DNA of 64,000 bases from Paenibacillus sp. FSL R10-2782 (GTDB taxonomy: Bacteria > Bacillota > Bacilli > Paenibacillales > Paenibacillaceae): contig NZ_CP151951.1 of assembly GCF_038592985.1 (NCBI RefSeq), positions 4,145,001-4,209,000 on the forward strand, in the 5' to 3' direction. The notes under the pieces are model-generated. The model did no database searches, was not told the DNA's origin, and saw nothing but the letters and a program-made list of their open reading frames with translations. Every line of letters starts with the position of its first letter. The first letter of the stretch is position 1. A program made the position numbers and the translations under genes. This document shows positions 14,418 to 64,000 of the stretch, in pieces.

Positions 14418-14468
14418 ATTCATGCGTATAGATAGAGCTGACTTTCTCCAGAAATAGATAAAGATACG

Positions 14469-14663: not shown

Positions 14664-14729
14664 TTTTATTACCTCCAAGCCTGGTTTTTGAAATCATAGT
14701 ATGATACAACACGTAATACACCCATTAAC

Positions 14730-14897
14730 TTAATGCTCTGATTTGCCCGTTTGGTAATGATTCAGCAGATCATCCAGCTTCTTGGATTGTTCAATCACTT
14801 TGGGATGTGTTAAAAATCCGTACTTTTTCTGAACTTGATACAGTTTCCTCATGGCTCTCTCGACACGAAGTAAAGTCACACCTTGATTCATCAGCAT
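14730..14897 (-). CDS. Spo0E-like aspartyl-phosphate phosphatase
   Basis: 55 residues. The start ATG at 14897 has AGGAGG five bases upstream (a second ATG at 14891 is possible). The sequence contains the Spo0E-family signature in HPKVIEQSKKLDDLLNHY: a Ser-x-x-Leu-Asp core within the second of two predicted antiparallel helices. Spo0E proteins remove phosphate from Spo0A~P and so delay sporulation. Family members are typically 50-85 residues, which fits. It lies directly upstream of the small HTH gene on the same strand, though the two are about 65 bases apart. Confidence 0.8.
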   Translation of the reverse strand: MLMNQGVTLLRVERAMRKLYQVQKKYGFLTHPKVIEQSKKLDDLLNHYQTGKSEH

Positions 14898-15021
14898 GAC
14901 CTCCTCCTATATGTCATATTTTATAATAAAAAGACTTTTTTGGATTTATGAATGATGATCCCAGCAAAAAAAGAGCAGTTCCAAAAGTTCGCATAAACTG
15001 GGAAGTCCCCAAGTTTTACGC

Positions 15022-15068
15022 AAAGGAACCTCCGTCTCCACTACTAAAGTGGGGACAGAGGTTCCTTT
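15022..15068. repeat. Long inverted repeat (about 21-bp imperfect stem)
   Basis: AAAGGAACCTC at 15022-15032 is matched by GAGGTTCCTTT at 15058-15068. The stem continues inward with GTCTCCACT against AGTGGGGAC. There is no uridine run on either side, so it is not a typical intrinsic terminator. It lies in a stretch without a convincing gene between the Spo0E-like gene and the exported-protein operon. It could be a small structured RNA or the relic of a mobile repeat. Confidence 0.5.
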
Positions 15069-15120
15069 GGTTTGGATAACAACCCTTTTACAGTTTGATC
15101 TCTTTTCATAAATAATGAGA

Positions 15121-15154
15121 AAAAATCCCTTGATTTTTAATGCAATCAAGGGAT
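15121..15154 (-). terminator. Intrinsic terminator of the 15980-15163 operon
   Basis: TCCCTTGATT and AATCAAGGGA form a perfect 10-bp stem with an 8-base loop. On the minus strand it is followed by TTTTTCTC, just downstream of the stop of the small membrane protein. Confidence 0.8.
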
Positions 15155-15162
15155 AGACCGAT

Positions 15163-15333
15163 TCATTTCTCTCGTTTTGACAATGCAAAATTGATTATCT
15201 CTCCAGTTACAGTTCCAGTCAAAATAATATAAAACATCATAGCATGAAACTTATACCCCAGTGCATAAAATATTCCCAAACCTATTGCATAGCCTAGCAA
15301 AATACTAGCATAACGTTTTAAAAATTTGTTCAT
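15163..15333 (-). CDS. Small two-helix membrane protein, coupled to the exported protein
   Basis: 56 residues: basic start MNKFLKRY, then two hydrophobic segments (about 9-28 and 31-50) and a basic tail SKREK. Its ATG overlaps the stop of the upstream exported-protein gene (ATGA), so it is probably translated by re-initiation. No family is recognised. A gene for an exported protein followed by a coupled small membrane protein is an arrangement seen for bacteriocin or toxin immunity pairs, but that role here is inference. Confidence 0.65.
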   Translation of the reverse strand: MNKFLKRYASILLGYAIGLGIFYALGYKFHAMMFYIILTGTVTGEIINFALSKREK

Positions 15334-15980
15334 GGAGTACATCCGATAGGGTATGGTTGCGAACTAAAGAACTTTGCAGAGTCAGTCGTACCAGTTACTT
15401 TGTTTCGTGATGCATCTTGATAGAACACCGTATGATTAGCGTAAGGGATAGCTTCACACTTTCTAGGATACGAATATTGATAAATAGTGTAATAAGATAC
15501 GGTATTCAAACTTGCTCCAACGCCTATAATTGCAAGAATCGTTGATACAGGTGCTTTAGTAATAGTTGCTATTGCCGCTGCTGCATAAGTTATTCCTACG
15601 TTCACCCAATCATAGGAGTAATCAAACTTGCCTACAAAGGTTCCACCTGAAGGAACAGCATTTAACGAAAAATCAGAACGGCTCTCTTTAACATTAAAGT
15701 TCTCCTGTTTTACACCGTCAATCAGCAAAGTTTGATCTTGTGGGAAATACTCAATTTTAGTTGTTTTTCCATTCTCAACAACAGTCGTTATTCTATGATT
15801 GCCATCATTAAAGTTTGTTGTTACAGTGGCCTCTCCACGATCAGTCTGAATAACTTCTATTTGAACTAGGTTTACCTCTGGCTTAGTGACTTGTTCAGCA
15901 TTACTCACCGAAGGTAAAACAGTCGCGCAGAGTAATACTGATGCCAATAAAGGAACGAACACTTTCTTGAAAATTTTCAT
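15330..15980 (-). CDS. Exported protein of unknown function
   Basis: 216 residues from the ATG at 15980, preceded by AGGAGAAG. The frame stays open further upstream, but the signal peptide decides the start: KIFKK, a hydrophobic core VPLLASVLLCATVLP, and a likely signal peptidase I site after SNA. The mature part is a polar beta-rich region (~30-110), then a hydrophobic Ala/Ile-rich stretch (ITYAAAAIATITKAP...ILAIIGVGASL) and a C-terminal part with two cysteines. A hydrophobic segment in an otherwise secreted protein recalls membrane-active bacteriocins, but no family is recognised. It is co-transcribed with the small membrane protein downstream. Confidence 0.7.
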   Translation of the reverse strand: MKIFKKVFVPLLASVLLCATVLPSVSNAEQVTKPEVNLVQIEVIQTDRGEATVTTNFNDGNHRITTVVENGKTTKIEYFPQDQTLLIDGVKQENFNVKESRSDFSLNAVPSGGTFVGKFDYSYDWVNVGITYAAAAIATITKAPVSTILAIIGVGASLNTVSYYTIYQYSYPRKCEAIPYANHTVFYQDASRNKVTGTTDSAKFFSSQPYPIGCTP

Positions 15981-16235
15981 AATAATTCTTCTCCTATACA
16001 AATATTTCAAACAGTTAAAAATATTACACTTTGTATAGTGAGAAGTAAGGGGAATTTTGTCGAACATTAAATCAATTAAAAAAGTCAACCTCATTTTAGA
16101 AAAAGTATTTAATTAACAATAAATTAAACTTACGTTCTGTTCGGATACTCTTCCAGCTTATGACCTACCCAACTACCAGCTCCTCAGTTATCACTAGGGG
16201 TTATGTAGCGAATCTACTTACTTCCTTAAGATAAG

Positions 16236-16504
16236 ATGGTTATGATTGATTTAGGCACAGATAGAACTATTGATTCATATAAGCTTAAAAGTGATTCAAA
16301 GAATATGAGAATAAGCTTTTATAATCGGGGTGTAGGTTATGAAGGTGCATTTGCAACGAATGTAGGGGATGGAGATCTCAAAACGCTTCCTGATGAAAAA
16401 AAGTTTATAATGTAATCGAACCAACATAACTAACTGGTGAGCGCGCTGTTCTGACTGTAACAATGGACAATGGATTTGATAATTCCTTTAATTACTGTGA
16501 TTAA
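16236..16504 (+). pseudogene. Decayed gene fragment with frameshift in an A-run and an in-frame stop
   Basis: An ATG at 16236 opens a 59-codon frame with protein-like composition (ISFYNRGVGYEGAFATNVGDG) that ends at 16415. Just before its end, in a run of seven A, the shifted frame continues as VYNVIEPT, meets a TAA, then goes on LTGERAVLTVTMDNGFDNSFN to a stop at 16504. The smooth continuation across the A-run suggests one ancestral reading frame broken by an indel and a nonsense change. No homolog is recognised and no good ribosome site precedes it. Confidence 0.45.
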
Positions 16505-16527
16505 CAACGACGAATAATGGAGGAAGA

Positions 16528-16773
16528 ATGAAAAGAAAGTGGTATTTAAGACCAATGGTCATAATTTTAATGATCATTATAACCCCGCCGATAGGCTATT
16601 TGAATGTATTCTTCAATAGGAAGAAATTTGAACCCAATGAACGATTAGGCTATCTGGCAATAACTACAGTATTTGCTGCCCTATGGTTAACTAAATTTCT
16701 ACCGCATTCATGGCGAATTCTCGCTATAATAGTTGTTGCACTTATCGGGATATTCATATTCAGAAAAAAGTAA
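16528..16773 (+). CDS. Small membrane protein
   Basis: 81 residues with a GGAGGAAG ribosome site. Three hydrophobic stretches are visible (about 10-28, 42-57 and 63-78), and both ends are basic (MKRKWYLR and FRKK). No family is recognised. It lies after the decayed gene and before a bidirectional hairpin, and converges on the pheromone gene of the AloR/AloP-like pair. Confidence 0.6.
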   Translation: MKRKWYLRPMVIILMIIITPPIGYLNVFFNRKKFEPNERLGYLAITTVFAALWLTKFLPHSWRILAIIVVALIGIFIFRKK

Positions 16774-16782
16774 ATAATAAAA

Positions 16783-16823
16783 TAAATCCCCGTTACCTTA
16801 ATTGGTTGGCGGGGATTTTTTTG
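16783..16823. terminator. Bidirectional terminator between small membrane protein and pheromone gene
   Basis: AATCCCCG pairs with CGGGGATT around a 17-base loop. A T7 run follows on the plus strand and an AT-rich tract on the minus strand, so it can end transcripts from both converging genes. Confidence 0.75.
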
Positions 16824-16834
16824 TTCCTATCCGT

Positions 16835-16957
16835 TTAAGAACCTCCAATTTGCACTTGAGGCTGAATTTTTTGATTATCGCTATGCGATAGAACAGGCAT
16901 AGCTAAGATAAACAAAAAGCTAGTTGTGATGACCAGTAGAACTACTTTTTTCAACAT
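16835..16957 (-). CDS. aloP: AloP/Phr-like pheromone precursor peptide
   Basis: 40 residues. The layout is that of exported signalling pro-peptides: a basic start MLKK, a hydrophobic export core VVLLVITTSFLFILAM, then a short polar tail ending IQPQVQIGGS. In Phr, arbitrium and Alo systems the mature signal is cut from the C-terminal tail and re-imported by oligopeptide permease to bind a TPR receptor. The gene starts inside the last 38 bases of the TPR receptor gene in a different frame, the tight receptor-peptide linkage usual for these systems. The exact mature peptide cannot be told from sequence; a C-terminal 6-10 residue product is likely. Confidence 0.75.
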   Translation of the reverse strand: MLKKVVLLVITTSFLFILAMPVLSHSDNQKIQPQVQIGGS

Positions 16958-18179
16958 TGCTTACCCACACCTTTTCAATAAGATTGAAATACTCCGCTTT
17001 GGTTTCAGGAACCGCATGGACTTGGAAACGAACAAACAATCCCATACAATTTATAAAATATGTCTCATTATTTAGTATATTCGCTTTTATCGATGCATTC
17101 TTCAAATGTTTAAAGCCATTACTGTACATCCCTTGGTTTAAATAATAGTGAGCCAGTTCGTAGCCAAACCACGCGAAATAATCTGGCATCACTTGCTGAG
17201 AATACATATCATTAGATGCTGGCAATAGATCAAAAGAATCAATTTCCAATTTGAACCGCTGGAGTATATCATCTACATTCAGTTGATATCGATTAGCCGC
17301 TATCATAACGTTTAACAGCTTTGAGAGTTTTTCATTTTCGGCTGTGACTGAAGCTGCTGCAATATACTCAACATAATCCAGAAGCACACTTATATCTCCA
17401 GACAGGAGTTTATTTACATAGGTATTACCTTCTGCCCAATGTTGATACAGTTTGATCCAATGCAGGGTATCCTCGTCCGTCTCTTTGACCCAATCTAAAT
17501 TAGCGTAGGCGTATGTATAATCTAGAGCTTGTTGATAATCGCCTTGGGCTTCACAAACACCTGCACACAACAAATCGGCATAGGTGATGTACACAAACAT
17601 GGGACGACTCAGCCTTCTATCAGGCTCCACGCGCTTTTGCTTCTTCTGCTGATGTTTCAAAGTATATTGGATTTCCGCTTTATCTCTCATTTTTCTAGCC
17701 GTTTCATCCAGCTTGTCCCATTCACGCAATGAACGATACACATTCGCCAAATCTTTCAACGCATCAAGCTGGTCTATTTCATCCAGACGTTCGACAAAGG
17801 GCTCAAATAGCGTAGCTGCCCTGAGATTTCGGTTTTGATCGTCTCCAACCTGAATCGTAAACATACGATACTGACAGATGGCCAAGCGTTCAGAATGCTG
17901 GTACTTCTCTCCTTCCGCAACCCCCTCATAGAGCAACAACGCAGCAGCATGTCGACCTTGTGCGAATAATATTTCCGCTGTATCAAATAGCTTCGGGGAA
18001 TATAGCAGCTTGTCCATGATATGACCAACTACACGCTGAATCGCTTCCAGCTTATCCAGCTCAGCACAGCGATACAATACTGGCTCAATTCGCCGCCAAT
18101 CCGGGGAACGTTCGATAATGTAATGATCTATGTATCGTTCGTAAAAAGAGCCTTCTGGTAATCCCATAGCCAGCGTCAT
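16920..18179 (-). CDS. aloR: AloR-like TPR peptide receptor, apparently short of its N-terminal HTH
   Basis: 419 residues, nearly all helical, with repeated helix pairs typical of TPR receptors of the RRNPPA group (Rap, NprR, PlcR, AimR, AloR). The residues at the start (MTLAMGLPEGSFYERYIDHY) resemble the last helix of the HTH in related Paenibacillus and Brevibacillus regulators, which usually have ~60 more residues before it. Upstream, the frame continues in protein-like sequence for 19 codons (ILKHRPVAIHQLDR) but meets TAA without an ATG, GTG or TTG. So either the DNA-binding part has been lost, or the protein works without it as Rap proteins do. It overlaps the pheromone gene at its 3' end. 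The Alo naming follows the P. polymyxa literature and is by architecture. Confidence 0.75.
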   Translation of the reverse strand: MTLAMGLPEGSFYERYIDHYIIERSPDWRRIEPVLYRCAELDKLEAIQRVVGHIMDKLLYSPKLFDTAEILFAQGRHAAALLLYEGVAEGEKYQHSERLAICQYRMFTIQVGDDQNRNLRAATLFEPFVERLDEIDQLDALKDLANVYRSLREWDKLDETARKMRDKAEIQYTLKHQQKKQKRVEPDRRLSRPMFVYITYADLLCAGVCEAQGDYQQALDYTYAYANLDWVKETDEDTLHWIKLYQHWAEGNTYVNKLLSGDISVLLDYVEYIAAASVTAENEKLSKLLNVMIAANRYQLNVDDILQRFKLEIDSFDLLPASNDMYSQQVMPDYFAWFGYELAHYYLNQGMYSNGFKHLKNASIKANILNNETYFINCMGLFVRFQVHAVPETKAEYFNLIEKVWVSNVEKSSSTGHHN

Positions 18180-45616: not shown

Positions 45617-46108
45617 TTATACGCCAGTTGTTTCCCGCTCCACAAAATACTTATTGGTCATATAATGAGCCTTGCCTCTGGAAGTGTCAACCATTCCCTT
45701 TTTGTTGTCGAGAAAAACAATTTCCCGGCATTTGGTGCAGTACCACTTGGTCCGCTTAAATGGAGATTCCGTTACATACGAGGTGCCGCATTTGCAATCT
45801 ACTTTGATCAAGGTTTCTGTCGATTTGTAAGCTTGGGAGAGCTCTTTCAAGCCCGTATCAGGCTGCTGAACCGGGATAATGACTTCCTGATAGCTTGAAT
45901 ATTGATTATGAACTTTAAAATCAGCCACCAGTTCCGCATGCAGCCCAAAGTACTCTTTGCCAATCTCGGTTACAAATTTCTTGCCGATTCTGTAACACTC
46001 AAGCCATTCCTGTATCTGTTGATTAGACAAAGGCACCGTGCCCTTGATACCGCTATTTAATGTGTAAGTCATGATGTATAAAGTATCATCTTGTCTATGT
46101 CCGTACAT
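45617..46108 (-). CDS. Zinc-ribbon protein, tandem paralog A
   Basis: 163 residues after AAGGAGG. It is a close paralog of the gene at 46245-46727; both share TYTLNSGIKGTV near the start, VADFKVHN in the middle and the C-terminal KKGMVDT...KA-YMTNKY-VER. Four cysteines in CKCG and CTKC, about 17 residues apart, form a zinc-ribbon site. A DNA- or protein-binding role is possible, but no family is recognised. Both genes may come from one recent duplication. Confidence 0.68.
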   Translation of the reverse strand: MYGHRQDDTLYIMTYTLNSGIKGTVPLSNQQIQEWLECYRIGKKFVTEIGKEYFGLHAELVADFKVHNQYSSYQEVIIPVQQPDTGLKELSQAYKSTETLIKVDCKCGTSYVTESPFKRTKWYCTKCREIVFLDNKKGMVDTSRGKAHYMTNKYFVERETTGV

Positions 46109-46244: not shown

Positions 46245-46727
46245 TCAGTTGCTTTGTCTTTCCACATAGTATTTGTTGGTCATGTACCACGCCTTGCCTT
46301 TTTCCGTATCCACCATACCCTTTTTACGATCCAGGAACACAATGTTATTGCATTCCTTGCATGACCACTTGGTCCTTTTATGCGGCGACTCTTCTATATA
46401 GGAAGCTCCGCATTTGCACTCTACCTGAATCAACGTTTTATACTGACTGTATGCCTCTGCCAACGGGTCTACGTCTACAGCTTTACTTACCACTGCAGGC
46501 TGTATCATGGATATATGATCCCGCTGCTCCGAGTATTCATTATGTACCTTAAAATCTGCTACCAATTCAGGATTCAAACCAAAATACTGTTTACCAACTA
46601 CCGTTACAAACTTGCTGCCAATTCGATATGCTTTTATCCATTCCTGAACCTGCTTATTGGATAGGTCGACTGTTCCCTTTATGCCGCTGTTCAGCGTATA
46701 GGTCATCAAATGTTCGTTTTGTGTCAT
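46245..46727 (-). CDS. Zinc-ribbon protein, tandem paralog B
   Basis: 160 residues with GGGGAG upstream. Paralog of the preceding gene, with CKCG and CKEC in the same positions and the same N- and C-terminal blocks. The two differ most in the linker before the cysteines. It lies about 136 bases upstream of paralog A, long enough for its own promoter. Function is unknown. Confidence 0.68.
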   Translation of the reverse strand: MTQNEHLMTYTLNSGIKGTVDLSNKQVQEWIKAYRIGSKFVTVVGKQYFGLNPELVADFKVHNEYSEQRDHISMIQPAVVSKAVDVDPLAEAYSQYKTLIQVECKCGASYIEESPHKRTKWSCKECNNIVFLDRKKGMVDTEKGKAWYMTNKYYVERQSN

Positions 46728-53858: not shown

Positions 53859-55247
53859 TTAGAAAATGTCCTCCAACAACGGAATCATACGCTGATGATG
53901 CAGCAAGTCCGTACGGTCACCATGCTCACGAATTATGTGTACCTCACCGCGAAAATCCAGCAGCTCCGCCGGCGTAGCATGTCCCAGAAAATGCACCGGA
54001 CTATAGCTTAGTCCATAAGCTCCTGCATTCGGAATGACAATATAATCGCCCTCCTGAATCGAAGGAAGCAGCGCTTTTTTCACAAGACAATCCTCGGGTG
54101 TACAAAGCGGTCCGACGATGCTCACGGTTTCCAGATCCACGGTTGCTTCTGGCTGAGGCTCCCCGATCCGGTCTGCGGCCTTCCCTAATGTTAGCTCGAC
54201 AGCAGCAGCCTCTTGAACAGGCATGTCCTTCCCCTGTCCCATCTGAATCACCACTTCCTGTCCCTCTTGTCTACGCATAATTCGCAATGGATAGTTGTCC
54301 CTAATCCGACGTCCTCGAAAAGCAGCCGAGGCATAATGATTCATACCGCCATCAGCCACGACGAACTTCTCGCCCTTGGATTCCTTGGTGTACAACGCCC
54401 GACAGACGTACATACCCGCCTGAGCAACCAGATATCTGCCGCTTTCGATGATCAGCATAACACCTGGCAGACGGGATCGAGTTTGCTCGGCCATTGCGTT
54501 CAGTCCGTCAATCACTTGCCCCATATCCAACGGCTGCTCATGAGTAAAATAAGGAACACCAAACCCGCCGCCCAAATTTACCGTATGCATCGCCACACCA
54601 TACTGATCCTGTATCCGTTCTGCCAATTGAAGAGTATTCGCAAATGAAGCTAAAATCTGATCCGCTTTCAGCATTTGCGTACCTGTATACACCTGAATGC
54701 CCTGGAAAAATACATGTGGACAATCTTCCAGCACCGTAAAAAAGTGATCCAATTGCCCCTCGTCCACACCAAAGGGACGAGGAACGCCGCCCATTTTGAT
54801 CGTCGATCCCGACAAATCGTTATCGGGATTCACACGAACCGCAGCGCGGACAAACAAGCCTGCTCGGGCAGCAATATCCTCCAGCAGGTGCAGTTCCCGC
54901 ACCGACTCGACATGAATGCAGCCGATTCCACAGGCTACCGCCTCACTCAGTTCGGCTACCGTTTTTCCCGGCCCGGCGTACAACACATCTTCTGGGGCAT
55001 ACCCGGCCTCCATCGCAACGAACATTTCTCCGGCCGAAGCGATTTCGACGCCACAGCCTAACGAGCGAAGCAATCCCGCCAAGGCTACGTTGCCATTGGC
55101 CTTGAGTGCGTAATGCACACGCACAGCCGGGTGCAGCCGGGATAGTAGCGAGCTGACATGAGCATACAGCGCGTCGCCATCGTAATAATAAAATGGCGTC
55201 GGATGTTCGCCGAAGCGTTCCAGCAAGGCTTCGTCCTTTTTATCCAT
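53859..55247 (-). CDS. BtrK-like PLP-dependent carrier-protein-linked amino acid decarboxylase
   Basis: 462 residues from the ATG at 55247 (GGAGGAG upstream; the frame stays open further 5'). Fold type III decarboxylase: PLP lysine Lys49 in HYALKANGN, the glycine loop NLGGGFGVPYF (224-234), IIESGRYLVAQ, and the active-site cysteine motif GPLCTPEDC (379-387) plus GAYGLSYSPVHFLGH. STIKMGGVPRPFG and FSPVHFLGH-type motifs are nearest to butirosin BtrK, which decarboxylates gamma-glutamyl-carrier protein, rather than to lysine-making LysA. A ~45-residue insert at ~325-370 is not in BtrK. The nearby carrier protein and ATP-grasp genes support the BtrK-like role. It is the last gene of the leftward cluster. 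Confidence 0.82.
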   Translation of the reverse strand: MDKKDEALLERFGEHPTPFYYYDGDALYAHVSSLLSRLHPAVRVHYALKANGNVALAGLLRSLGCGVEIASAGEMFVAMEAGYAPEDVLYAGPGKTVAELSEAVACGIGCIHVESVRELHLLEDIAARAGLFVRAAVRVNPDNDLSGSTIKMGGVPRPFGVDEGQLDHFFTVLEDCPHVFFQGIQVYTGTQMLKADQILASFANTLQLAERIQDQYGVAMHTVNLGGGFGVPYFTHEQPLDMGQVIDGLNAMAEQTRSRLPGVMLIIESGRYLVAQAGMYVCRALYTKESKGEKFVVADGGMNHYASAAFRGRRIRDNYPLRIMRRQEGQEVVIQMGQGKDMPVQEAAAVELTLGKAADRIGEPQPEATVDLETVSIVGPLCTPEDCLVKKALLPSIQEGDYIVIPNAGAYGLSYSPVHFLGHATPAELLDFRGEVHIIREHGDRTDLLHHQRMIPLLEDIF

Positions 55248-55276
55248 CTGCTGAATCTCCTCCCTTCTTCTTTTTC

Positions 55277-56323
55277 CTATTCCGCATAGATCGTCTGGCC
55301 TGAACGGGCGGCCTGATGAATAGCTGCCAGCAATCTGACGCGCTCGGCGGCCTCGTGGAACGGAACAGGCTCCGCGACTCCCCGGATGATATTGCAAAAC
55401 GCCTCCAACTGATTGACGTAATAGTTCATGGGCTCGAAAACGGTTTTCATTTTGGAGACTGCCATGGTATCCTTCGTTATTTCCGTCTTGAGCGTTATTT
55501 TATAAAAGCCCAGATTCGCCCGAAAGCAGTCCTGCAAAGTAACTACCGCCGAATCAAAGGTTAATACATGAGCGCAGCGGTATGGCCGCTCAAATGAAAA
55601 GAGGGCGGATGCCTCCAATCCCCCCGGATAGCGGGCCTGTGCACGAAATGTCCAGTCACAGCCGTTAGGACCGTCGAAATCCGATTGACTGCGGAACTCC
55701 GCCTGCTCCAGTCCAGCGACTGCCTGAAGAAACTGGAGCCAATACACGCCCAAATCCCAAAAGCATCCCCCGCCCTGCTCCGGTCGGGATCTATAATTCT
55801 CCGCATGCCCATCCTTTGCGGGAATGCACAGGCTGGTTGTTATGGAGCGCAAACAACCATAGCGACCGGAATCCACGATATTGCGCAGCTCGCGCTGCCA
55901 AGGATGATGCTGCACCATGACTCCTTCCAGCAGGTGAACGCTGCTCTGCCCGACTGCCGCTTCCAGGGGAGCCAGCTCCGCCGTATTCAGACATAACGGC
56001 TTCTCCACAAGCACATGCTTGTGAGCCTGTAATGCTTTACCGATCCACTCCGCATGCAGATCGTTACTCAGCGCAATATACACGGCGTCAATCTCCGGGT
56101 CGCTCAGCATATCCTCGGCATGCCGATAAACGACACTAACGCCGAAACGGTCCGCCAAATCTCCTGCCTTGGCAACGGTTCGGTTCGCAAGCGCGGTTAC
56201 ACGGGCCCCGGTAACGTAACGGATCGGCTCCAGCAGCGCACGAGGGGCAATGGCTGAACAGCCAATGAGGCCAAAGCGAATATCCCGTACCGCAGGCTCT
56301 TGTGCGGCGGCAGCGGTGTTCAT
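55277..56323 (-). CDS. Gfo/Idh/MocA-family NAD(P)-dependent oxidoreductase
   Basis: 348 residues. RFGLIGCSAIAPRALLEPIRYV is the nucleotide loop; AVYIALSNDLHAEW and VLVEKPLCLN (catalytic Lys of EKP) follow, and a C-terminal alpha/beta domain with FWDLGVYWLQFL. Family members oxidise or reduce sugars and related polyols. It overlaps the glycosyltransferase gene by 4 bases and lies 30 bases before the decarboxylase gene. It may supply or modify a sugar or keto group in the product of this cluster. Confidence 0.87.
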   Translation of the reverse strand: MNTAAAAQEPAVRDIRFGLIGCSAIAPRALLEPIRYVTGARVTALANRTVAKAGDLADRFGVSVVYRHAEDMLSDPEIDAVYIALSNDLHAEWIGKALQAHKHVLVEKPLCLNTAELAPLEAAVGQSSVHLLEGVMVQHHPWQRELRNIVDSGRYGCLRSITTSLCIPAKDGHAENYRSRPEQGGGCFWDLGVYWLQFLQAVAGLEQAEFRSQSDFDGPNGCDWTFRAQARYPGGLEASALFSFERPYRCAHVLTFDSAVVTLQDCFRANLGFYKITLKTEITKDTMAVSKMKTVFEPMNYYVNQLEAFCNIIRGVAEPVPFHEAAERVRLLAAIHQAARSGQTIYAE

Positions 56324-57480
56324 GACCCTTTCTCCAATCCCGTTGAGCTTACTTGCACTTGGGCGTTCCTTACATATGACTCCACGTAGCGTGGTGTCTG
56401 ACTACGCAACTCCACGATCTTCCGGTGCATGTCCTCCAGAATCTCAGCGCCGCCACCATAGATTTGCATCCACGTATCGTACCGTATCCCCAGTCCCAGC
56501 CGTTCCCACAGATCCGCATTATGCATTTCATGCACACCGAACGGCTCCAGCATAATGAGTGGAGTGGCTGTGGCGAACGAATCTGCCAGACTACCCCCGC
56601 CGGGCTTGCTGACAATGGCCTGGACATGACATGCCTGGTCTAGCATGCTATGGTAATCTGGCCTGGCCTCATACAACGTCTCCTCGCCTGCCTTCACCTC
56701 ACCAAAAGGCGGAAAGGTATGCTCCCCGGCTTCATTCCGCTGCCATGTTCTCCACTGCGGGTCCATTCGGAAATAGCGTATACCGTCCCGCTGCTCATCT
56801 GGCTGATCCTGATCATACAGCAGCAAATCCAGCTCCCAGCCCGCCTCTTCCAGCCGTCCGACCTTTTCACGGTACGTGCCCATACCCCAACCGCCGCCAT
56901 GCACAAATAAGCGGGATTTCCGGGCCTCAAAGGGAACATGCTCTACAGCCGGGACATCAATATAGTGGCTGACTTTATTTTGGTCACTTTCAAAAAATGT
57001 CATTTCTCCACACCCATCGGCAAAATGCGGGTTGTGCTTGGCTAGATTTTTCCATGAAGGAGAAGGCGTGGAATCCATATACACAATGTCCACATGTACT
57101 GATCCCGGCTCCCTGCGCTTGCGATACTCCTCCAGCACATACATCCAATGGCCGGACAAGCATATAAAATGCCGCCGATCTTCCTCTATCCATCGGGTCA
57201 GCAGCACTTCCATGGCAGCGAGATCAAGCGAATTGCGCATATCCTGGGGAACCTTCTGTGACATTAAGGCCACAGCGAAATTATCATGGTACGCTTTGCG
57301 GCTTTTGTCCACCTTGAGACGGGCCGACTCAGGCAGCACATTTTCAAATACATGAATCGCCGTCTCCACACCCAACCTGCGAAGACCCGCTTGCATAAGC
57401 AAGCCGGGAGTATAAAAGCCCAATCCAAAACCGGAACACAAAATCGTTACCTTCATACTCTTGTGCATACTCATGCTCAT
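56320..57480 (-). CDS. MGT/UDP-glycosyltransferase-like enzyme
   Basis: 386 residues. KVTILCSGFGLGFYTPGLLMQAGL opens a GT-B fold (N-terminal acceptor domain); the C-terminal donor domain has VSKPGGGSLADSFATATPLIMLEPFG near residue 290, the pattern of macrolide/UDP-glucuronosyl and MurG-like glycosyltransferases. A start either at 57480 or at the second in-frame ATG is possible. It suggests a glycosylated product. The substrate is unknown. Confidence 0.78.
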   Translation of the reverse strand: MSMSMHKSMKVTILCSGFGLGFYTPGLLMQAGLRRLGVETAIHVFENVLPESARLKVDKSRKAYHDNFAVALMSQKVPQDMRNSLDLAAMEVLLTRWIEEDRRHFICLSGHWMYVLEEYRKRREPGSVHVDIVYMDSTPSPSWKNLAKHNPHFADGCGEMTFFESDQNKVSHYIDVPAVEHVPFEARKSRLFVHGGGWGMGTYREKVGRLEEAGWELDLLLYDQDQPDEQRDGIRYFRMDPQWRTWQRNEAGEHTFPPFGEVKAGEETLYEARPDYHSMLDQACHVQAIVSKPGGGSLADSFATATPLIMLEPFGVHEMHNADLWERLGLGIRYDTWMQIYGGGAEILEDMHRKIVELRSQTPRYVESYVRNAQVQVSSTGLEKGS

Positions 57481-57491
57481 ACGCCTCCCGT

Positions 57492-58985
57492 TTAATTCAG
57501 CACTGTAAAATGATGCTCCGCCAAAAAATGCTCCAGCTTCGTAGTCAGACGCATTTTTTCCTTATCACCCGCGGCAACCAGTTCCAAATAAAGACGACCT
57601 TTTCCACGTGCTACGCCTTCAGGCCCACCAGACACGGAAGGACCGTCACCACTGCTAATCCCGCTAACACGAGCCTGCTTGGCAGACAACCTGCCCCCGC
57701 GCTCCGTTGTATTTCTGCTTGGGGTGCTCTTAGGACCTGCATTCCTGTTTTCGCCATCTCGTCCGCCCGTGTTCACATACAGCGTATTGGCACCCAGCGG
57801 CATCACGCCTTCTTCACTCTCGCCTGTGAACAGCAGTCCCTCACATTCCAGCCCTTCCAGCAATTCTTCATAGGACAAACTGCCGTCATGGGACAACGAA
57901 TAATTCGTCAGCGTGCCACGCATATTTTTCCCAGCTAAAAAGGTGTCCAATTGGTGCTTGATCAGACTCATGGATTTACGGGCGTTAATTTCGATAATAG
58001 GCTCCAGCTTCCCACCCCGAAGTGTCATCGAGTCAATGCAGACGTCGCCGTAATAACCGTCCTGATACAACTGCTTCCCTACATCCTGCATTAAGCGAAA
58101 ATAGCCCTCACGCTCCAGCCGCTCCATAAAAGCCTCATCCGGCGACAACGATTCCCGGTAGGCGAATTGGGTGTTAGCCAGCCACTGCACAGACAGGATA
58201 TCGACACTTCCGTTATCACCAATCGTAAATTGGCATGAAAAATCCTGCTCCTTCTCCAGAAAAGGCTCCAGAAGGAACAGTACGCGTTTGCCTTTTCGTT
58301 CCTGTCCACGTAAATACGATACAATCCGGTCCAGCATCTGTGTTGAGGTAATGTGCAGGTTTCCTTTGCCCGATACGCCAAAATCATCCTTGATTAAAAA
58401 GCTTCCATCCCGCAGCAGCTTGCGTCCCGCCTCGGCTACATCCGCAAACGAAGTCACAATATAGCCGGGATGACGCAGACCGAGACTGCGTTTTAAATCG
58501 GAAGAATAGGTTTTGGCATTCACCTTGCGGATCGTTTCCAGCGGCGGCTGATGCAGCGTAATACCCCAGGCGCGTGCGGCCTCCTCCACATGAGGCAAAC
58601 CCGCAAACGGGCTAAGCACACATCCCTCCAGTTGCGGAAAACCCGTACTGGTATCGGCCTTGCGACTGCCCAGCAGTTCAAAAACAGAAGCCGCCGACAC
58701 ATTCCCCGCCTGCTCCGTTCCGTCAGTCAAATCCCGTTCATTCACAGCCGGGCGAAAGCCCAACTGCGCGATATACTGACGATGTACAGGCGAAATCGCA
58801 TAGCGGGTCAACAACGCATCTCCCGGCTGGCAAAAGCTGAACAGCAGCTCATCCATTGCCGCCACAATCGCAGAAGAAGCCCGGTCAGGAATGGCGGGCA
58901 AGGAGGCTAGCTGGGCATCACGCCAGTAAGCCTCCGCCTCGAACGTTCCCATATACAAATGACGCTGGTTCGGTATCGCGTTCAT
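57492..58985 (-). CDS. ATP-grasp ligase (BtrJ-like), with a low-complexity insert
   Basis: 497 residues from the ATG at 58985 (AGGAAG eight bases upstream). The ATP-grasp core is residues ~150-340: FLIKDDFGVSGKGNLHI (ATP lysine and glycine loop), LLEPFLEKEQDFS and the magnesium motif IIEINARKS (331-338). Its domain order and the C-terminal region EEGVMPLGANTLYV parallel the second ATP-grasp of the cluster (63148 onwards). BtrJ of butirosin joins glutamate to a carrier protein. Residues ~407-463 are a Gly/Ser/Arg-rich stretch not expected in an enzyme core, perhaps an expanded repeat. The substrate is not known. Confidence 0.75.
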   Translation of the reverse strand: MNAIPNQRHLYMGTFEAEAYWRDAQLASLPAIPDRASSAIVAAMDELLFSFCQPGDALLTRYAISPVHRQYIAQLGFRPAVNERDLTDGTEQAGNVSAASVFELLGSRKADTSTGFPQLEGCVLSPFAGLPHVEEAARAWGITLHQPPLETIRKVNAKTYSSDLKRSLGLRHPGYIVTSFADVAEAGRKLLRDGSFLIKDDFGVSGKGNLHITSTQMLDRIVSYLRGQERKGKRVLFLLEPFLEKEQDFSCQFTIGDNGSVDILSVQWLANTQFAYRESLSPDEAFMERLEREGYFRLMQDVGKQLYQDGYYGDVCIDSMTLRGGKLEPIIEINARKSMSLIKHQLDTFLAGKNMRGTLTNYSLSHDGSLSYEELLEGLECEGLLFTGESEEGVMPLGANTLYVNTGGRDGENRNAGPKSTPSRNTTERGGRLSAKQARVSGISSGDGPSVSGGPEGVARGKGRLYLELVAAGDKEKMRLTTKLEHFLAEHHFTVLN

Positions 58986-59076
58986 ATGATTCGCTTCCTT
59001 TCCTACTTCGCTTGTACAGCACCATCCCAATAATCCGCTTTCCATGTATATTTTCAACTCATATATGGCAGTACCG

Positions 59077-59889
59077 CTACTGGCTTGCACTTGTATAATC
59101 ACGCAAGGCAAACTGCCATATAAAGCGGATCACCGCCAGTAGCCAGATCGGGGCGAGGAATGCCCATATGATCAAACCGGGTTCCATTTTGCCCAGAATA
59201 AACATGGGTGGAAAATTACAAATCACAAACACTGGAAGCACAAACAAGCCGATACGCTGGATCAGGTTACTATATACCGCCATCGGCACATAGTTCGTCT
59301 CGAAAATGCTGTTGGACAGCTCCGTCACCCCGTTCGTGCGGATGATCCAGAAGGCTAGCAGTTGGGGCAGCAAAAACACAGAATAGGCCGTCAACACTCC
59401 GCAACCGAGCAACACAGTAAAGCCCCCGACCGTTTCAAAATTAAACGGCAGACCGAGCTTATACCAGCCAATGCCCGTCATGATTCCGCCGCCGACTACG
59501 TTTGGAATGGTGTAGCCCAGCTCAAATTGCCGCAGCGTCACCATAAATTGCAGGGACACCGGCTTGGTCATGAGCACATCCAATGAACCGGTACGGATTT
59601 TGTCAGGCAGACTTGTAAAATTGCTGTAGAACAAGCCGCTGTAAAACCCGCTCATCATCGTAAATACGCCGATATATAGCAGCACCGCGTCAGGAGACCA
59701 GCCGTTAATATCCGTCCCGGCCCGGTATGGAACCGAGGCGTACAGCAGCTTGATGAGCAAATAAGCAGTTTCAACCAGAAAAGCAGTAATGAAATTAATG
59801 CGGTATTCCATCTGCGACATGACGGAAAACTGGACGAACTTCCAGTACAGTCGGATATAACGCCCAGCGTTTCGGAAAACATTTTTCAT
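59077..59889 (-). CDS. ABC-2-type transporter permease
   Basis: 270 residues, about six membrane helices, in the pattern of ABC-2/DUF990-type permeases (LIKLLYASVPYRAGTDINGWSPDAVLLYIGVFTM, SLDVLMTKPVSLQFMVTLRQFE). It stands next to a second permease gene (one base apart) and an ATPase gene, giving a two-permease exporter. It probably exports the product of the cluster, or its lipid-linked precursor. Confidence 0.87.
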   Translation of the reverse strand: MKNVFRNAGRYIRLYWKFVQFSVMSQMEYRINFITAFLVETAYLLIKLLYASVPYRAGTDINGWSPDAVLLYIGVFTMMSGFYSGLFYSNFTSLPDKIRTGSLDVLMTKPVSLQFMVTLRQFELGYTIPNVVGGGIMTGIGWYKLGLPFNFETVGGFTVLLGCGVLTAYSVFLLPQLLAFWIIRTNGVTELSNSIFETNYVPMAVYSNLIQRIGLFVLPVFVICNFPPMFILGKMEPGLIIWAFLAPIWLLAVIRFIWQFALRDYTSASQ

Positions 59890-59890
59890 G

Positions 59891-60697
59891 TTAACCTCCT
59901 ACCGAGACAAAGCGTTTGACCCCGGCTTGCCACACCCGGCGCGATACGGCCGCCAGCACTACAATCCAGAGCCATTGCACGCCAATGCCTTCAGCGGCTT
60001 CCAGCATGGTCAGCTTGCCCGTTAATGCGTTCACCGGAAAAAATACGGTGTAGCTAAACGGGAGCAAACTGAACATGCGGGCCAAAACGTCTCCAAAAAT
60101 CGTCAGCGGAAACACGGTGCCACTAGCTACATAAATGACGAGCGACAGCGTGTAAAATAGTCCCCCCGATTCCGTCACCCAAAAGGCTATGCCGCTCAGC
60201 GCGTAATAGACCACAAAATTGAGCACCAGCGCCCCTGGCAACGCCAATATGTAAAGCAGGATATACGACAGCCCGAAGCTGATTCGTCCTTCCAGGCTAA
60301 GGCACAGCAGTAGAATTGCAGCCGCCAGCAGCACTACTGCGGACTGTACCGCCTTGCCTCCAATAAACCGACAAAAACGGTAAGCAAAATAATGTACAGG
60401 CTGCACCATGAATTTGGCCAGTCCGCCTTCCTTGATGTCTGTAGCAATTTCGTATTCAAAACCCGTAGCGATCAGCTTCCCGGTTACCCCTGCCATGACT
60501 ACATACACCAGCATTTCCGGCAAAGAGTAGCCCAGCACCCTTGCTTGTCCCGAAGAACCGAATACCGCAAGCCAGAGAAAAATTTGGGTCATGATCGGCA
60601 GCATGAACCCCGCCATCTGGAGCCAGTAATTGGCCCGGTATTCCATTTCGTTTTGCATACCAAGCTGGAGCACCTTCATATATTTGTTATTTCGCAT
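59891..60697 (-). CDS. ABC-2-type transporter permease
   Basis: 268 residues, six membrane helices with YRANYWLQMAGF and GGLAKFMVQPVHYFAYRF, the same family as its neighbour. It starts inside the last 11 bases of the ATPase gene. Together with that ATPase and the other permease it should form a heteromeric exporter of the ABC-2 (DUF990) type. Confidence 0.87.
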   Translation of the reverse strand: MRNNKYMKVLQLGMQNEMEYRANYWLQMAGFMLPIMTQIFLWLAVFGSSGQARVLGYSLPEMLVYVVMAGVTGKLIATGFEYEIATDIKEGGLAKFMVQPVHYFAYRFCRFIGGKAVQSAVVLLAAAILLLCLSLEGRISFGLSYILLYILALPGALVLNFVVYYALSGIAFWVTESGGLFYTLSLVIYVASGTVFPLTIFGDVLARMFSLLPFSYTVFFPVNALTGKLTMLEAAEGIGVQWLWIVVLAAVSRRVWQAGVKRFVSVGG

Positions 60698-61679
60698 CAG
60701 CTAGCCTGCCTCCATCGTACAAATTGGCTATCCCCTCTTCCAACGGGACGTCCTCAATCGTAAAATCAATGACAGACAGCGCATCCAATATCTTTTTGGA
60801 CCAGGTCAGAGTATCTTCTGCATCCAGCTCAAATACCGCCTCCAGCTCCGAGTTGGAGCGCAGCTTGCCAAGTCCCGCCAACGTCAGGTTAGGCACAGGG
60901 CTCTCCAGTCGAACCTTGAGCAGCTTGCGGGCACCGATCACCTCATTCACCTTTTTCAAATCCCCGTCATACACCAGTCTTCCCCCGCTGATAATGATGG
61001 ATCTGCTGCACAAGTCCTCAATATCCTTCATGTAATGGCTTGTCAGCAGGATGGTCGTCCGGTGTGTGCGGTTATAGGCTTTGAAAAACTCGCGAATGCG
61101 CCGCTGGGAAACCAGATCCAGTCCAATGGTCGGCTCGTCCAGCAAGATGACCCGTGGGCGATGCAGCAGCGCGGCAATCAGCTCCATTTTCATACGCTCG
61201 CCGAGAGATAAGCGCCGAACCTGAACATGAAGCTGCTCCTCCACCCCAAGCAGGGTAACCAGCTCGTCCAGCGCCTCCTTGTAATGACTTTCATCTATCT
61301 CGTAAATAAGCTTGTTCAGTTCGAACGACTCGCTGGCAGGCAAATCCCACCAGAGCTGGTTTTTCTGTCCCATCACGATGGAAAACTGCCGTTTAAACTC
61401 CTTTTGCCGCTTCCACGGGGTAAAGCCAAGTACAGATGCCTCCCCGTCACTGGGATGGAGAATGCCGGACAGCATTTTGAGCGTCGTTGTTTTGCCAGCC
61501 CCGTTTGGACCGAGAAATCCGACAATTTCGCCTTCCTCAATGGTGAAGCTGACATCCCGTACGGCCTCCTTGGTCAGCTTTTCCCGCCTGAACAGGTTTT
61601 GTAATGATTTGCGCACGCCCGGCTCCTTTTTATAGTACGTAAACGTTTTCGACAAGTGATTCAATGTAATGGACGGCAT
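60687..61679 (-). CDS. ABC transporter ATP-binding protein
   Basis: 330 residues after GGAGGAG. Walker A GPNGAGKTTTLKMLSG, ABC signature LSLGERMKMELIAALLH, Walker B VILLDEPTIGLD and switch His (TSHYMKDIE) are intact. The ~100-residue C-terminal domain after residue 230 is usual for exporter ATPases of the DrrA/NatA type. It powers the two permeases encoded downstream. Confidence 0.92.
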   Translation of the reverse strand: MPSITLNHLSKTFTYYKKEPGVRKSLQNLFRREKLTKEAVRDVSFTIEEGEIVGFLGPNGAGKTTTLKMLSGILHPSDGEASVLGFTPWKRQKEFKRQFSIVMGQKNQLWWDLPASESFELNKLIYEIDESHYKEALDELVTLLGVEEQLHVQVRRLSLGERMKMELIAALLHRPRVILLDEPTIGLDLVSQRRIREFFKAYNRTHRTTILLTSHYMKDIEDLCSRSIIISGGRLVYDGDLKKVNEVIGARKLLKVRLESPVPNLTLAGLGKLRSNSELEAVFELDAEDTLTWSKKILDALSVIDFTIEDVPLEEGIANLYDGGRLADAK

Positions 61680-61761
61680 TCAATTCTCCTCCTCTTTCAT
61701 CTGTCCGTGACACCTTGGTGAGCCGTTTCCTGATATGATTTACCTGATACGTTATGCCTAA

Positions 61762-62892
61762 TTACTCGGTTGCTTGCTCAGCTAAAATCATCAATTCCTC
61801 CAGCATGTGCCGCTGTTTGTCAATCAAGCTGAGGGCGCGTTCGGTAATGTCAGGCATCCGTTGCTTACGCAGTTGAAGACCTGTTTTGTAAATATGCAGG
61901 TTGAGCTTATGCCATTCCGCATGCAATGACTGCGCTAATTCCACCACATGCTGCGCTCGCGGTCCCAATGTCTCTTCATGCAGCATGCAATAATCCGCTG
62001 TGTAATCGGTCAGATGAAGGGCGCTGCCCAAACGCAGATTGTAATAGATTTCATGGCAGTACGTACGGAAGTCCGTATCCTCCATGTCTGTCAGCAGGCG
62101 GAAATCCTCGACAAAGGCACGATAGCCCTCATCTCCCCGCTTGACCTGTTTGCCAACTGCGACATCTCCGGGGTTATTTCCCGGGTCATCGGACGAGGGC
62201 ACACCTCTCCAGATCGCTTCATGTCCAGTAACATATTGACGAATATGGTATGCACACGCCGCATGCAATTCGCCTGGCGAAAGGGGCGCGGGCTGTTCCA
62301 CCAGCCAGGCATATTCAATAATGCCCTGCATCAGATCGTCGAGCCGGGCGGAACCGACGTAAGTCATGGCATGGCCCGAGGAATCCAGCAGGAAGCTGTC
62401 ATTTACCTGTGCTGTTCGCCGCTGCAAGTCCAGTCCAGACAGCTCAATGACATGGCCCCTTGGGTAATTTTTCACATACACGTCGTGGTAGGTTAAAGCG
62501 GTACTCGATGTGTGTAGCATCGTACCGTAGCCTGTAGTCAGCGCCAGCAGCAGATCGGTTTCATTGCTTACGCCAGCAATCCACGGCTCGACCCGAATTA
62601 CCGGACCGCCGCTGGCTGCCATTTCCTGAAGCTGCTCCGGATATTTCTCGGGACCGAAGCGCTTCAAATCGCCGCTATACTCCGCGCACATGCTGCCGCA
62701 CAGCATGAACAGCTCGGATTCGGCCATGTTCACGCCATATCGCCGTAGCGAGGTGCGCAGGGAAGAATATACACAATGCTTCCCTGGAGCAGCATCTATC
62801 GATTCTTCAGCAGCGTAGTCGACAACGGACTCATGAACGTTCTCCATGCCCGATGCCTGCACAGGTCTGATCTCTGCCGCCCCCTTATGCAT
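61762..62892 (-). CDS. BtrH-like carrier-protein acyltransferase
   Basis: 376 residues. GKHCVYSSLRTSLRRYGVNMAESELFMLCGSM (catalytic-type Cys40) matches the N-terminal domain of the BtrH family, cysteine-protease-like enzymes. BtrH moves the aminoacyl side chain from carrier protein BtrI to the aminoglycoside in butirosin synthesis. FLLDSSGHAMTYVG follows near residue 165. The C-terminal half is helical. The start at 62892 overlaps the carrier-protein gene by 8 bases, so the two are translationally coupled. It probably transfers the carrier-bound acyl group to an unknown acceptor. Confidence 0.78.
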   Translation of the reverse strand: MHKGAAEIRPVQASGMENVHESVVDYAAEESIDAAPGKHCVYSSLRTSLRRYGVNMAESELFMLCGSMCAEYSGDLKRFGPEKYPEQLQEMAASGGPVIRVEPWIAGVSNETDLLLALTTGYGTMLHTSSTALTYHDVYVKNYPRGHVIELSGLDLQRRTAQVNDSFLLDSSGHAMTYVGSARLDDLMQGIIEYAWLVEQPAPLSPGELHAACAYHIRQYVTGHEAIWRGVPSSDDPGNNPGDVAVGKQVKRGDEGYRAFVEDFRLLTDMEDTDFRTYCHEIYYNLRLGSALHLTDYTADYCMLHEETLGPRAQHVVELAQSLHAEWHKLNLHIYKTGLQLRKQRMPDITERALSLIDKQRHMLEELMILAEQATE

Positions 62893-63130
62893 ATTTGCTC
62901 AGCAGACGTTCAATGCCTTGAAGTGTAGAAAGATGCTCCAGCACCAGATCGTCGTCCTCCATCGTAATATCAAGCTCATTTTCCAGCTCTACAATCAATT
63001 CAACAGCGGATAGGGAATTCAGCCCCAAGGTTCGCAAATCCTGCTCCGGCGTCAATTGTTCCAGTTCACCTGGAGCCAGCTTCAATACCTTTTCCAGCAA
63101 AGGTACTACGTGGTACACATCTGTCTTCAT
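62885..63130 (-). CDS. Acyl carrier protein (BtrI-like)
   Basis: 81 residues after GGGAGG. The four-helix carrier fold carries the phosphopantetheine motif LGLNSLSAVELIVELE, where Ser39 would be modified. It is acidic, as usual for carrier proteins. Together with the BtrH-, BtrK- and ATP-grasp-like genes it points to aminoacyl-carrier chemistry. It overlaps the BtrH-like gene and lies 17 bases after the ATP-grasp gene. Confidence 0.9.
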   Translation of the reverse strand: MKTDVYHVVPLLEKVLKLAPGELEQLTPEQDLRTLGLNSLSAVELIVELENELDITMEDDDLVLEHLSTLQGIERLLSKYA

Positions 63131-63147
63131 CCTAAATTCCTCCCGGT

Positions 63148-64000
63148 TTATGAGCTTCCCAATCCCGCAATGATACCTTCCAGCCTGTGCGCATAGGCTT
63201 CGGCTTCCTGCCAGCTATCTGCCATAATCAGCGTGAAAATCCGATTCACATACCCCCGCTTCACCGGCGTACCGGACAACGTACCTGCCGTATAAACAAA
63301 CACCCCTTCGGGGCGCTCGGGCGTGTAGAGTAAGCCTTCCTCTGCCAGCAAGCCGCATAAGCGACTGTAGGTCAGCGGTGTGGCGGTAACGTTGCGGTAG
63401 TAGCGGGACAGCGTTTTATGCTGCTCTCCCAAGACCGACGACAGGAACGAAATATAGGTAGACAGGGTAAACCTGCCGTTAATCTCGATCACCGGAACCA
63501 GCAAGCCTCCTTCATCGACAAAACCGTCAATGGAAGCCATGCCTGTATAACCGATGGAATACAGATACGTTCCCAACTGGTAAGCGCAGCGCCTCACTTC
63601 TTCTTCCAGCGCAGCGCCAAGCTCAGCCGGAACGCGGGACCCGGTGTACACCGTGCCGTCCACATTTTGCCTTTTCAGCGAAAACATCGTCACCCCACCG
63701 CCCTCGTCAATACAGAGCTGGTAGTTCAGATCCATCTGCTTGTTATGCCAGCGCTCCACCAGCCAGCCTCCCGAAGAAGGAGATGAGCCGCCAAAGCGTT
63801 TCATCACACTTAACAGCGTATCCAACTTGGACAGCTCGTCCAGCATATACATGCCTTGCCCCGATGCGCCATGCGGCTGCTTGATGATCAGCTTCACAGG
63901 CCCGTCCGACAAGTCGGCCAGTCTGCCGCATTCCCTGCGGATCGCCGCTTCGTCTGCGCATACGGCTCCCTCACTGACGGCAAAACCGAGCTTTTGCGCA
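63148..64000 (-). CDS. ATP-grasp ligase (BtrJ-like), partial, runs off right edge
   Basis: 284 residues are visible. The frame is open through the right edge, so the start is missing. KLIIKQPHGASGQGMYML is the ATP-binding lysine and glycine loop, WLVERWHNKQMDLNYQL the next motif, and VPVIEINGRF the magnesium site. Its end, EEGLLYTPERPEGVFVYTAGTL, parallels the other ATP-grasp of the cluster (57492-58985). It lies upstream of the carrier-protein gene and would load an amino acid onto it, as BtrJ does with glutamate on BtrI. The donor amino acid is not known. Confidence 0.78.
   Translation of the reverse strand, partial: AQKLGFAVSEGAVCADEAAIRRECGRLADLSDGPVKLIIKQPHGASGQGMYMLDELSKLDTLLSVMKRFGGSSPSSGGWLVERWHNKQMDLNYQLCIDEGGGVTMFSLKRQNVDGTVYTGSRVPAELGAALEEEVRRCAYQLGTYLYSIGYTGMASIDGFVDEGGLLVPVIEINGRFTLSTYISFLSSVLGEQHKTLSRYYRNVTATPLTYSRLCGLLAEEGLLYTPERPEGVFVYTAGTLSGTPVKRGYVNRIFTLIMADSWQEAEAYAHRLEGIIAGLGSS

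Follow-up and report, generated by a model that had tools for sequence, protein, structure and literature searches.

What is made by a cluster in which the carrier chemistry of butirosin biosynthesis stands beside a glycosyltransferase and an exporter? This combination lies at the right edge of the 64,000-nt window that we analysed in the soil bacterium Paenibacillus sp. FSL R10-2782 (G000:C1:4145001-4209000 of a one-contig 5.60 Mb genome). A first-pass annotation had described there an acyl carrier protein (ACP), two ATP-grasp ligases, a BtrH-like acyltransferase, a BtrK-like decarboxylase, a Gfo/Idh oxidoreductase, a glycosyltransferase and an ABC exporter; the nine genes within the window and an ATP-grasp gene cut by its edge are all intact, lie on one strand and belong to the families then named. 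The cluster is a conserved, uncharacterised 12-gene pathway, one half of which would work like the butirosin side-chain line. As to its product, we think it rather probable that a twin-carrier line joins a decarboxylated aminoacyl group to a glycosylated core modified by a radical S-adenosylmethionine (SAM) enzyme, and then exports it.

The cluster continues past the right edge, as had been expected. Extension of the sequence completed ATP-grasp 1 and added a radical SAM/SPASM protein (397 aa); a further carrier protein, ACP-A (92 aa), was skipped by the initial gene call and found through comparison with relatives. The gene order is ACP-A, radical SAM, ATP-grasp 1, ACP-B, BtrH-like, ABC ATPase, permease 1, permease 2, ATP-grasp 2, glycosyltransferase, Gfo/Idh and decarboxylase, with intergenic gaps across the 12 genes of -11 to 91 nt. 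Beyond ACP-A lie a divergent MurR-type regulator, nagB and nagA (assigned by eye from translations), and the left flank is an FTR1 iron-permease operon on the opposite strand. Because the divergent MurR-nagB-nagA block bounds the right side, the layout indicates a single 12-gene operon. Both hexamers of a promoter-like site (Table 1) are identical in 11 of 11 aligned polymyxa-group loci; the site was not seen aligned in L040-L042, L074 and L124.

The decarboxylase carries the comparison with butirosin. Among PDB entries it scored 408 bits with BtrK (two entries), followed by diaminopimelate decarboxylase at 158 bits, and among NCBIfam models TIGR03099 (390 bits) ranked above lysA (264 bits), both under cut-off. 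The BtrK-like protein of a positive-control locus from another genome of the same family (L133) showed the same pattern (366 and 270 bits). The active-site loop, GPLCTPEDC, is the same in L126-L129 and L131-L134 and differs in L130; its CTP part is more widely distributed than the full CTPEDC motif. The LysA-type protein of the host genome (L154) has CESGD at this position, and by the loop test L154 is LysA and a further host relative, L153, is not. In a tree of 33 rows, nine decarboxylases from this cluster type grouped together (support 98/96) and the butirosin-like set L126-L129 and L133 formed a separate group (100/99); L153, inside the group of types III/IV, and L154 sit on branches 7.4 and 9.5 long and their placement is unsure. 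An identity as LysA or ornithine decarboxylase was ruled out by the PDB ranking and the loop motif, and the tree agrees, with the long branches noted. By its sequence the protein is best read as a BtrK-type aminoacyl-ACP decarboxylase.

Candidate genes for the other three steps of a butirosin-type line are also present. In a profile comparison, ATP-grasp 1 matched the BtrJ-like set with a probability of 100% (26% identity over 403 columns), and its gene is followed after 17 nt by that of ACP-B, which suggests that the two form a BtrJ/BtrI-like pair. Residues K199, E332, N334 and R336 were invariant in 16 of 16 ATP-grasps (11 of ATP-grasp 2 and five of ATP-grasp 1). The BtrH-like protein falls under the BtrH_N cut-off of 29.7 bits and orthologues in L124 (36.6 bits) and L078 (42.5 bits) exceed it; C40, H147 and D165 are invariant in 7/7 core-type copies, and H147 and D165 in 9/9 copies when two control copies are included. 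Its closest named copy, 98% identical, is from Paenibacillus terrae PIC167, which makes the host a near relative of the P. terrae/polymyxa group, and plasmids gave no BtrH-like match at E <= 1e-5. A Gorillibacterium-type locus (L043) that this query also matched was by eye a polyketide synthase (PKS)/non-ribosomal peptide synthetase (NRPS) locus and was dropped. The family tests thus support the earlier claim of BtrI/J/K/H-type carrier chemistry beside a glycosyltransferase and an exporter.

The remaining genes contain no NRPS or PKS gene. Seven cysteines of the radical SAM protein (CxxxCxxC and those of the auxiliary cluster) were invariant in 13 of 13 sequences, placing it by sequence in the twitch/SPASM branch. 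The glycosyltransferase is predicted by its model to have a GT-B fold, and the best NCBIfam model for the Gfo/Idh protein was IolG, at 83 bits far under the cut-off of 355. Identity to the host cluster in L040-L042 was highest for the radical SAM protein (88–89%), followed by the ABC ATPase (84–85%), ACP-B, both ligases and the decarboxylase (59–68%) and the BtrH-like protein (50–53%). A precursor of a ribosomally synthesised, modified peptide was considered and rejected, the small first gene being a carrier protein; smaller open reading frames were not searched systematically. The closthioamide, tunicamycin and cispentacin systems were also weighed, and only AmcB, the cispentacin ACP, turned up: its model scored 36.3 bits with ACP-B and 32.3 bits with ACP-A, under the cut-off of 80.

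How far this second set of genes extends was asked with ATP-grasp 2 and the radical SAM protein in 392 genomes of the order. ATP-grasp 2 matched in 145/392 genomes at E <= 1e-8, some distant ATP-grasps outside the core included, and the radical SAM protein in 128/392 at E <= 1e-60. Among the matches listed, which were the best 139 of 150 ATP-grasp 2 places (the 11 weakest, E 7e-49 and worse, left out), a radical SAM gene lay within 12 kb at 125, and of 150 listed radical SAM places 125 have ATP-grasp 2; ten of the 14 listed ATP-grasp 2 places without one are in genus g19, whose radical SAM match is on another contig. We then compared 44 core loci, a non-random set picked from the search matches, using presence thresholds of our own choosing (L026-L029 appear to be genomes G045, G037, G014 and G004 and were not counted twice). 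Within the stretches fetched, ACP-A was found in 41, radical SAM in 40, glycosyltransferase in 43, ATP-grasp 2 in 43, Gfo/Idh in 34 and the ABC ATPase in 32. ACP-A was missed in L125 (outside the stretch), L092 and L093, and radical SAM in L037 (decayed), L092, L125 (stretch edge) and L149. In a phylum sample of 398 genomes, the radical SAM protein matched in four at E <= 1e-50, the host's own included, and one of these, L148 from another class, has the same core; more relatives are named from Clostridium and Acetivibrio. ACP-A, ATP-grasp 2, the glycosyltransferase and the radical SAM protein are a core that recurs across the order and was seen once in another class of the phylum. Some core loci also encode methyltransferases or enzymes of nucleotide-sugar metabolism (nucleotidyltransferase, epimerase/dehydratase, UDP-glucose dehydrogenase), in support of a product that bears a sugar. 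At L080, L087, L088, L090, L137, L148, L164 and L165 a second, divergent radical SAM gene (23–27% identical) directly precedes that of the core.

The BtrJ/I/K/H-like genes, by comparison, are an accessory add-on to this core that is near all-or-none. Both the decarboxylase and ATP-grasp 1 are present in 21 of the 44 loci, each time together with ACP-B and the BtrH-like protein; ATP-grasp 1 alone occurs in none, the decarboxylase alone in one (L137, about 10 kb off) and neither in 22. The 21 comprise 11 loci of the polymyxa group, L040-L042, L124-L125 and five of a second layout. Collinear with the host cluster are 12 further Paenibacillus loci, L124 and L125 (radical SAM at the stretch edge, ACP-A not seen). 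In the second layout (L078, L081+L160, L083+L159, L162, L163) the core is followed by a block of decarboxylase, ATP-grasp 1, ACP and BtrH-like genes, with exporter genes missing or broken in L078 and L162. Four loci of genus g25 (L074-L077) keep only ACP-A, radical SAM, BtrH-like, ATP-grasp 2, glycosyltransferase and Gfo/Idh genes and have no ACP-B, ATP-grasp 1 or decarboxylase, so that the BtrH-like transferase also accompanies the core alone. The first-pass view of a butirosin-type cluster is thus right as to the side-chain genes, which are there, but these form an accessory module on a recurrent ACP/ATP-grasp/glycosyltransferase/radical SAM core and are not the heart of the cluster.

Relatives of the module genes were also seen in other settings. 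Many genomes of the genus encode a decarboxylase with a comparable score, and BtrK-like genes with ATP-grasp partners are found without the core; the pairing was checked in L138, L139, L140 and L151, where the ATP-grasp is 27–31% identical. Butirosin-like ACP/ATP-grasp/BtrK clusters are present in five genomes of the order (L126-L129 and L133), and the two that were read through, L127 and L133, have BtrO-like and cyclitol-synthase-like genes, with a BtrG-like gene in L133. By eye, L130, L135 and L141 have a BtrK-like decarboxylase and a PGM1-type ATP-grasp adjoining a protein of 880–961 aa and an AMP-ligase-like gene, and L130 and L135 also have a core-family glycosyltransferase, an ACP and a BtrH-like protein.

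Is the rest of the butirosin pathway there? At L133, the BtrI/J/K/H-like genes adjoin a luciferase-type BtrO, a GGACT-type BtrG, a dehydroquinate (DHQ)-synthase-type protein, a PIG-L deacetylase and a GMC oxidoreductase, and family scans of the 12 proteins of our cluster found none of these types. Across the whole host genome the best match to BtrO reached 19.5 bits, about 1.8 Mb from the cluster, in line with the annotation's report of no BtrO-like hydroxylase, and the GGACT family gave 0 matches in a search that was positive in 9/14 controls. A DHQ-synthase query returned one match above 30 bits (117 bits, 32% identity, about 1 Mb away), which is taken as AroB, plus two at 25–27 bits. No aminoglycoside or 2-deoxystreptamine core genes were found near the cluster, between its FTR1-type and MurR/nagB/nagA-like flanks; just to the right, where such genes would have spoken for an aminoglycoside, the extension shows the radical SAM gene, ACP-A and the MurR block. 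Classification as a butirosin pathway was rejected, since the extras of the control locus were not found in the cluster or, for BtrO and BtrG, in the genome.

Built on the observed gene families, key residues, operon layout and co-inheritance of the core and of the module, the pathway that we infer, in its every substrate, order of steps and pairing of carriers with enzymes, would be an assembly line that uses neither NRPS nor PKS enzymes and has two stand-alone carrier proteins. In the core line, ATP-grasp 2 would activate a carboxylic acid, which is probably an amino acid, for loading on ACP-A, and the GT-B enzyme would attach a sugar from a house-keeping nucleoside diphosphate sugar. The radical SAM enzyme, of the twitch type, and the Gfo/Idh protein would use radical and NAD-dependent redox reactions to modify either the sugar or the acyl moiety. 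In the side line, ATP-grasp 1 would load an acidic amino acid on ACP-B via its distal carboxyl, and the BtrK-like enzyme would strip the alpha-carboxyl from the thioester-bound amino acid to leave an omega-aminoacyl-ACP; Glu would yield gamma-aminobutyrate (GABA) and Asp would yield beta-alanine. Next, this group would be handed by the BtrH-like cysteine acyltransferase to an amine on the core product, for secretion through the ABC exporter.

In butirosin biosynthesis the GABA unit is shielded by a gamma-glutamyl group, which BtrG cleaves off. Protection and deprotection in butirosin are described in a passage of PMC11284099. As the genome has no BtrG family, a butirosin-style protect-deprotect step cannot run as it does there, and the acyl group may either need no protection, as beta-alanine would not, or keep its protecting group. 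For the same reason GABA, which the first-pass annotation had put forward as the transferred group, stands as one option only, since Asp-derived beta-alanine or a retained gamma-glutamyl group fits as well.

Several observations weigh against the twin-carrier pathway. ATP-grasp 1 shares more identity with PGM1-type ligases from other clusters (44–48%) than with BtrJ-like ones (26–29%), and its best PDB match was PGM1, at 32 bits. Because the profile comparison of the BtrH-like protein with three control-type (L133-type) sequences was very weak (probability 1.8%), it is a distant BtrH_N family member at best. The structure of the radical SAM protein fits sugar-acting and peptide-acting enzymes equally well, and a GABA-thioester without a BtrG system is left exposed to cyclisation. 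The module is not strictly indivisible: L080+L158, L082+L157 and L164 carry an ACP and a BtrH-like gene but neither the decarboxylase nor ATP-grasp 1. The number of independent lineages is also far below 21, since a single species group supplies 11 of the module loci, one of them decayed. In this decayed locus (L037; G037:C41:153500-173400, P. farraposensis) radical SAM, Gfo/Idh, ATP-grasp 2 and exporter genes are fragmentary, as are the glycosyltransferase and ACP-A in part; it retains ATP-grasp 1, ACP-B, the BtrH-like gene and the decarboxylase (81–94% identical).

Which other explanations fit the same genes? One, which we think unlikely, is decoration of the cell surface: the glycosyltransferase and ligases would attach aminoacyl groups to a glycolipid or a sugar of the wall, and the ABC transporter would flip the product outwards. 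ABC2-type exporters also transport glycans, and the modelled glycosyltransferase fold aligned best with MurG and also well with MGD1, a galactolipid synthase of plants; by sequence, a diglucosyl diacylglycerol synthase was a weak NCBIfam match (22 bits). In PMC4000134, the transfer of acyl groups to amino sugars is proposed for another ATP-grasp/ACP/sugar cluster. However, scans of the 12 proteins found no polymerase or membrane-anchoring families, the ABC ATPase is present in just 32 of the 44 core loci, and the decayed P. farraposensis copy speaks against an essential envelope role. We are also quite doubtful that core and module are two separate pathways with only a common exporter and promoter. 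Half of the core loci (22/44) lack decarboxylase and ATP-grasp 1, BtrK-like/ATP-grasp pairs exist elsewhere without the core, and L037 retains the module genes with most core genes lost, all of which would agree with such independence; yet the four module genes accompany the core in both layouts and are interleaved with core genes inside one operon in the host cluster. Very improbable is a cryptic butirosin- or 4-amino-2-hydroxybutyrate-type pathway in which the module supplies the gamma-amino acyl side chain of an aminocyclitol whose synthesis takes place elsewhere: the BtrK-, BtrJ-, BtrI- and BtrH-type genes and a Gfo/Idh protein nearest inositol dehydrogenases are set against the missing BtrO and GGACT matches and the single, distant AroB-like DHQ synthase, in a genome compared with a control that has the BtrO, BtrG and DHQ-synthase types beside its BtrI/J/K genes.

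Table 1. Features of the 12-gene cluster; positions are those of the window or, past its right edge, their window equivalents.
Feature	Position	Strand	Remarks
Decarboxylase, pyridoxal phosphate-dependent, BtrK-like	53859..55247	-	462 aa; start ATG 55247; GGGAGGAG upstream of start
Gfo/Idh/MocA NAD-dependent sugar/cyclitol dehydrogenase	55277..56323	-	GFO_IDH_MocA 79.7 bits
GT-B glycosyltransferase (predicted fold), core gene	56320..57480	-	
ATP-grasp ligase 2, core gene	57492..58985	-	homologous to ATP-grasp 1
ABC exporter permease 2	59077..59889	-	ABC2_membrane_6 146 bits
ABC exporter permease 1	59891..60697	-	ABC2_membrane_6 92 bits
ABC exporter ATPase	60687..61679	-	ABC_tran 94.5 bits
BtrH_N-type papain-like acyltransferase	61762..62892	-	BtrH_N 22.4 bits; Cys-His-Asp kept
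ACP-B, side module	62885..63130	-	PP-binding 46.8 bits; GLNSLS attachment site
ATP-grasp ligase 1, BtrJ-like	63148..64000, on to window-equivalent 64524 (L004:10149-11525)	-	PreAtp-grasp + PGM1_C; 458 aa
Radical SAM protein, core gene	window-equivalent 64574-65767 (L004:11575-12768), outside window		Radical_SAM 68.9, SPASM 55.4 bits
ACP-A, core gene	window-equivalent 65817-66095 (L004:12818-13096), outside window		PP-binding 33.7 bits; AGGAGGAG ribosome site
Promoter-like site TTGACT-19-TATAAT	window-equivalent 66190-66220, outside window		putative, from alignment

Elsewhere in the window, two adjacent proteins that resemble each other (163 aa at 45617-46108 and 160 aa at 46245-46727) share a four-cysteine, zinc-finger-like end and gave no Pfam match at the limits used. 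A low-GC stretch (0.38–0.40) spans 14001-18000, where two open reading frames (254 and 419 aa) gave no Pfam match at E <= 1e-5.

How does the cluster compare with known systems? With butirosin it shares a free-standing ACP, a BtrJ-family ATP-grasp, a BtrK-type decarboxylase with the CTPEDC loop of L126-L129 and L133, and a candidate BtrH_N-type acyltransferase, the host copy of the last being under cut-off. It differs in having no BtrO match, BtrG family or found aminoglycoside core, and in adding a second ACP/ATP-grasp pair, the radical SAM and GT-B enzymes and an exporter. ATP-grasp 1 resembles the pheganomycin-type ligase PGM1 in having both Pfam domains (PreAtp-grasp and PGM1_C), but its partners here are a carrier protein and a decarboxylase; a PGM1-style ribosomal peptide partner was not noticed at the cluster, where no systematic search was made. 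In vicenistatin biosynthesis, as set out in part of PMC11284099, VinL, VinN and VinO handle an acidic amino acid that is placed on a stand-alone ACP, decarboxylated there by a pyridoxal phosphate (PLP) enzyme and passed on. The proposed side line would be alike in decarboxylating an ACP-bound acidic amino acid by a PLP enzyme before transfer, whereas in vicenistatin biosynthesis, according to the same passages, loading is done by an adenylation enzyme and a polyketide synthase takes up the acyl group. The twitch/SPASM enzymes BtrN, BlsE, DesII and SkfB are 13–17% identical to the host radical SAM protein, and the fold does not reveal the reaction.

A literature search, judged on titles, abstract starts and some passages, found no description of the cluster or the core. 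An earlier survey by Iyer et al. in 2009 reportedly noticed such gene associations and may touch on the core. The co-occurrence of ATP-grasps with dehydrogenase and radical SAM genes is noted as an earlier observation in a passage of PMC8939145, and passages of PMC10269915 and PMC10560198 give butirosin as a low-similarity cluster-finder label in Bacillus genomes.

What would the cluster mean for its family? Tentatively, and with the odds against it, we propose that the core (ACP-A, ATP-grasp, GT-B and radical SAM enzymes, usually with Gfo/Idh and exporter) makes glycosyl amino acids of an undescribed class, carrier-borne and tailored by radical SAM chemistry, in many bacteria of the order and some Clostridia, and that the operon studied here is among its most elaborate forms, with a butirosin-type line grafted on to acylate the product. 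If this is true, the radical SAM enzyme would act on a substrate tied to a carrier, or glycosylated on it. The BtrI/J/K/H carrier chemistry, complete beside a non-aminoglycoside scaffold, is suggested to be a portable module. Since the core has no NRPS or PKS gene, signature-based cluster finders may overlook it. The presence of the cluster in named Paenibacillus strains puts its product within reach of deletion and metabolomics; the assembly-line family to which it belongs is an orphan one, present in about a third of the sampled genomes of the order.

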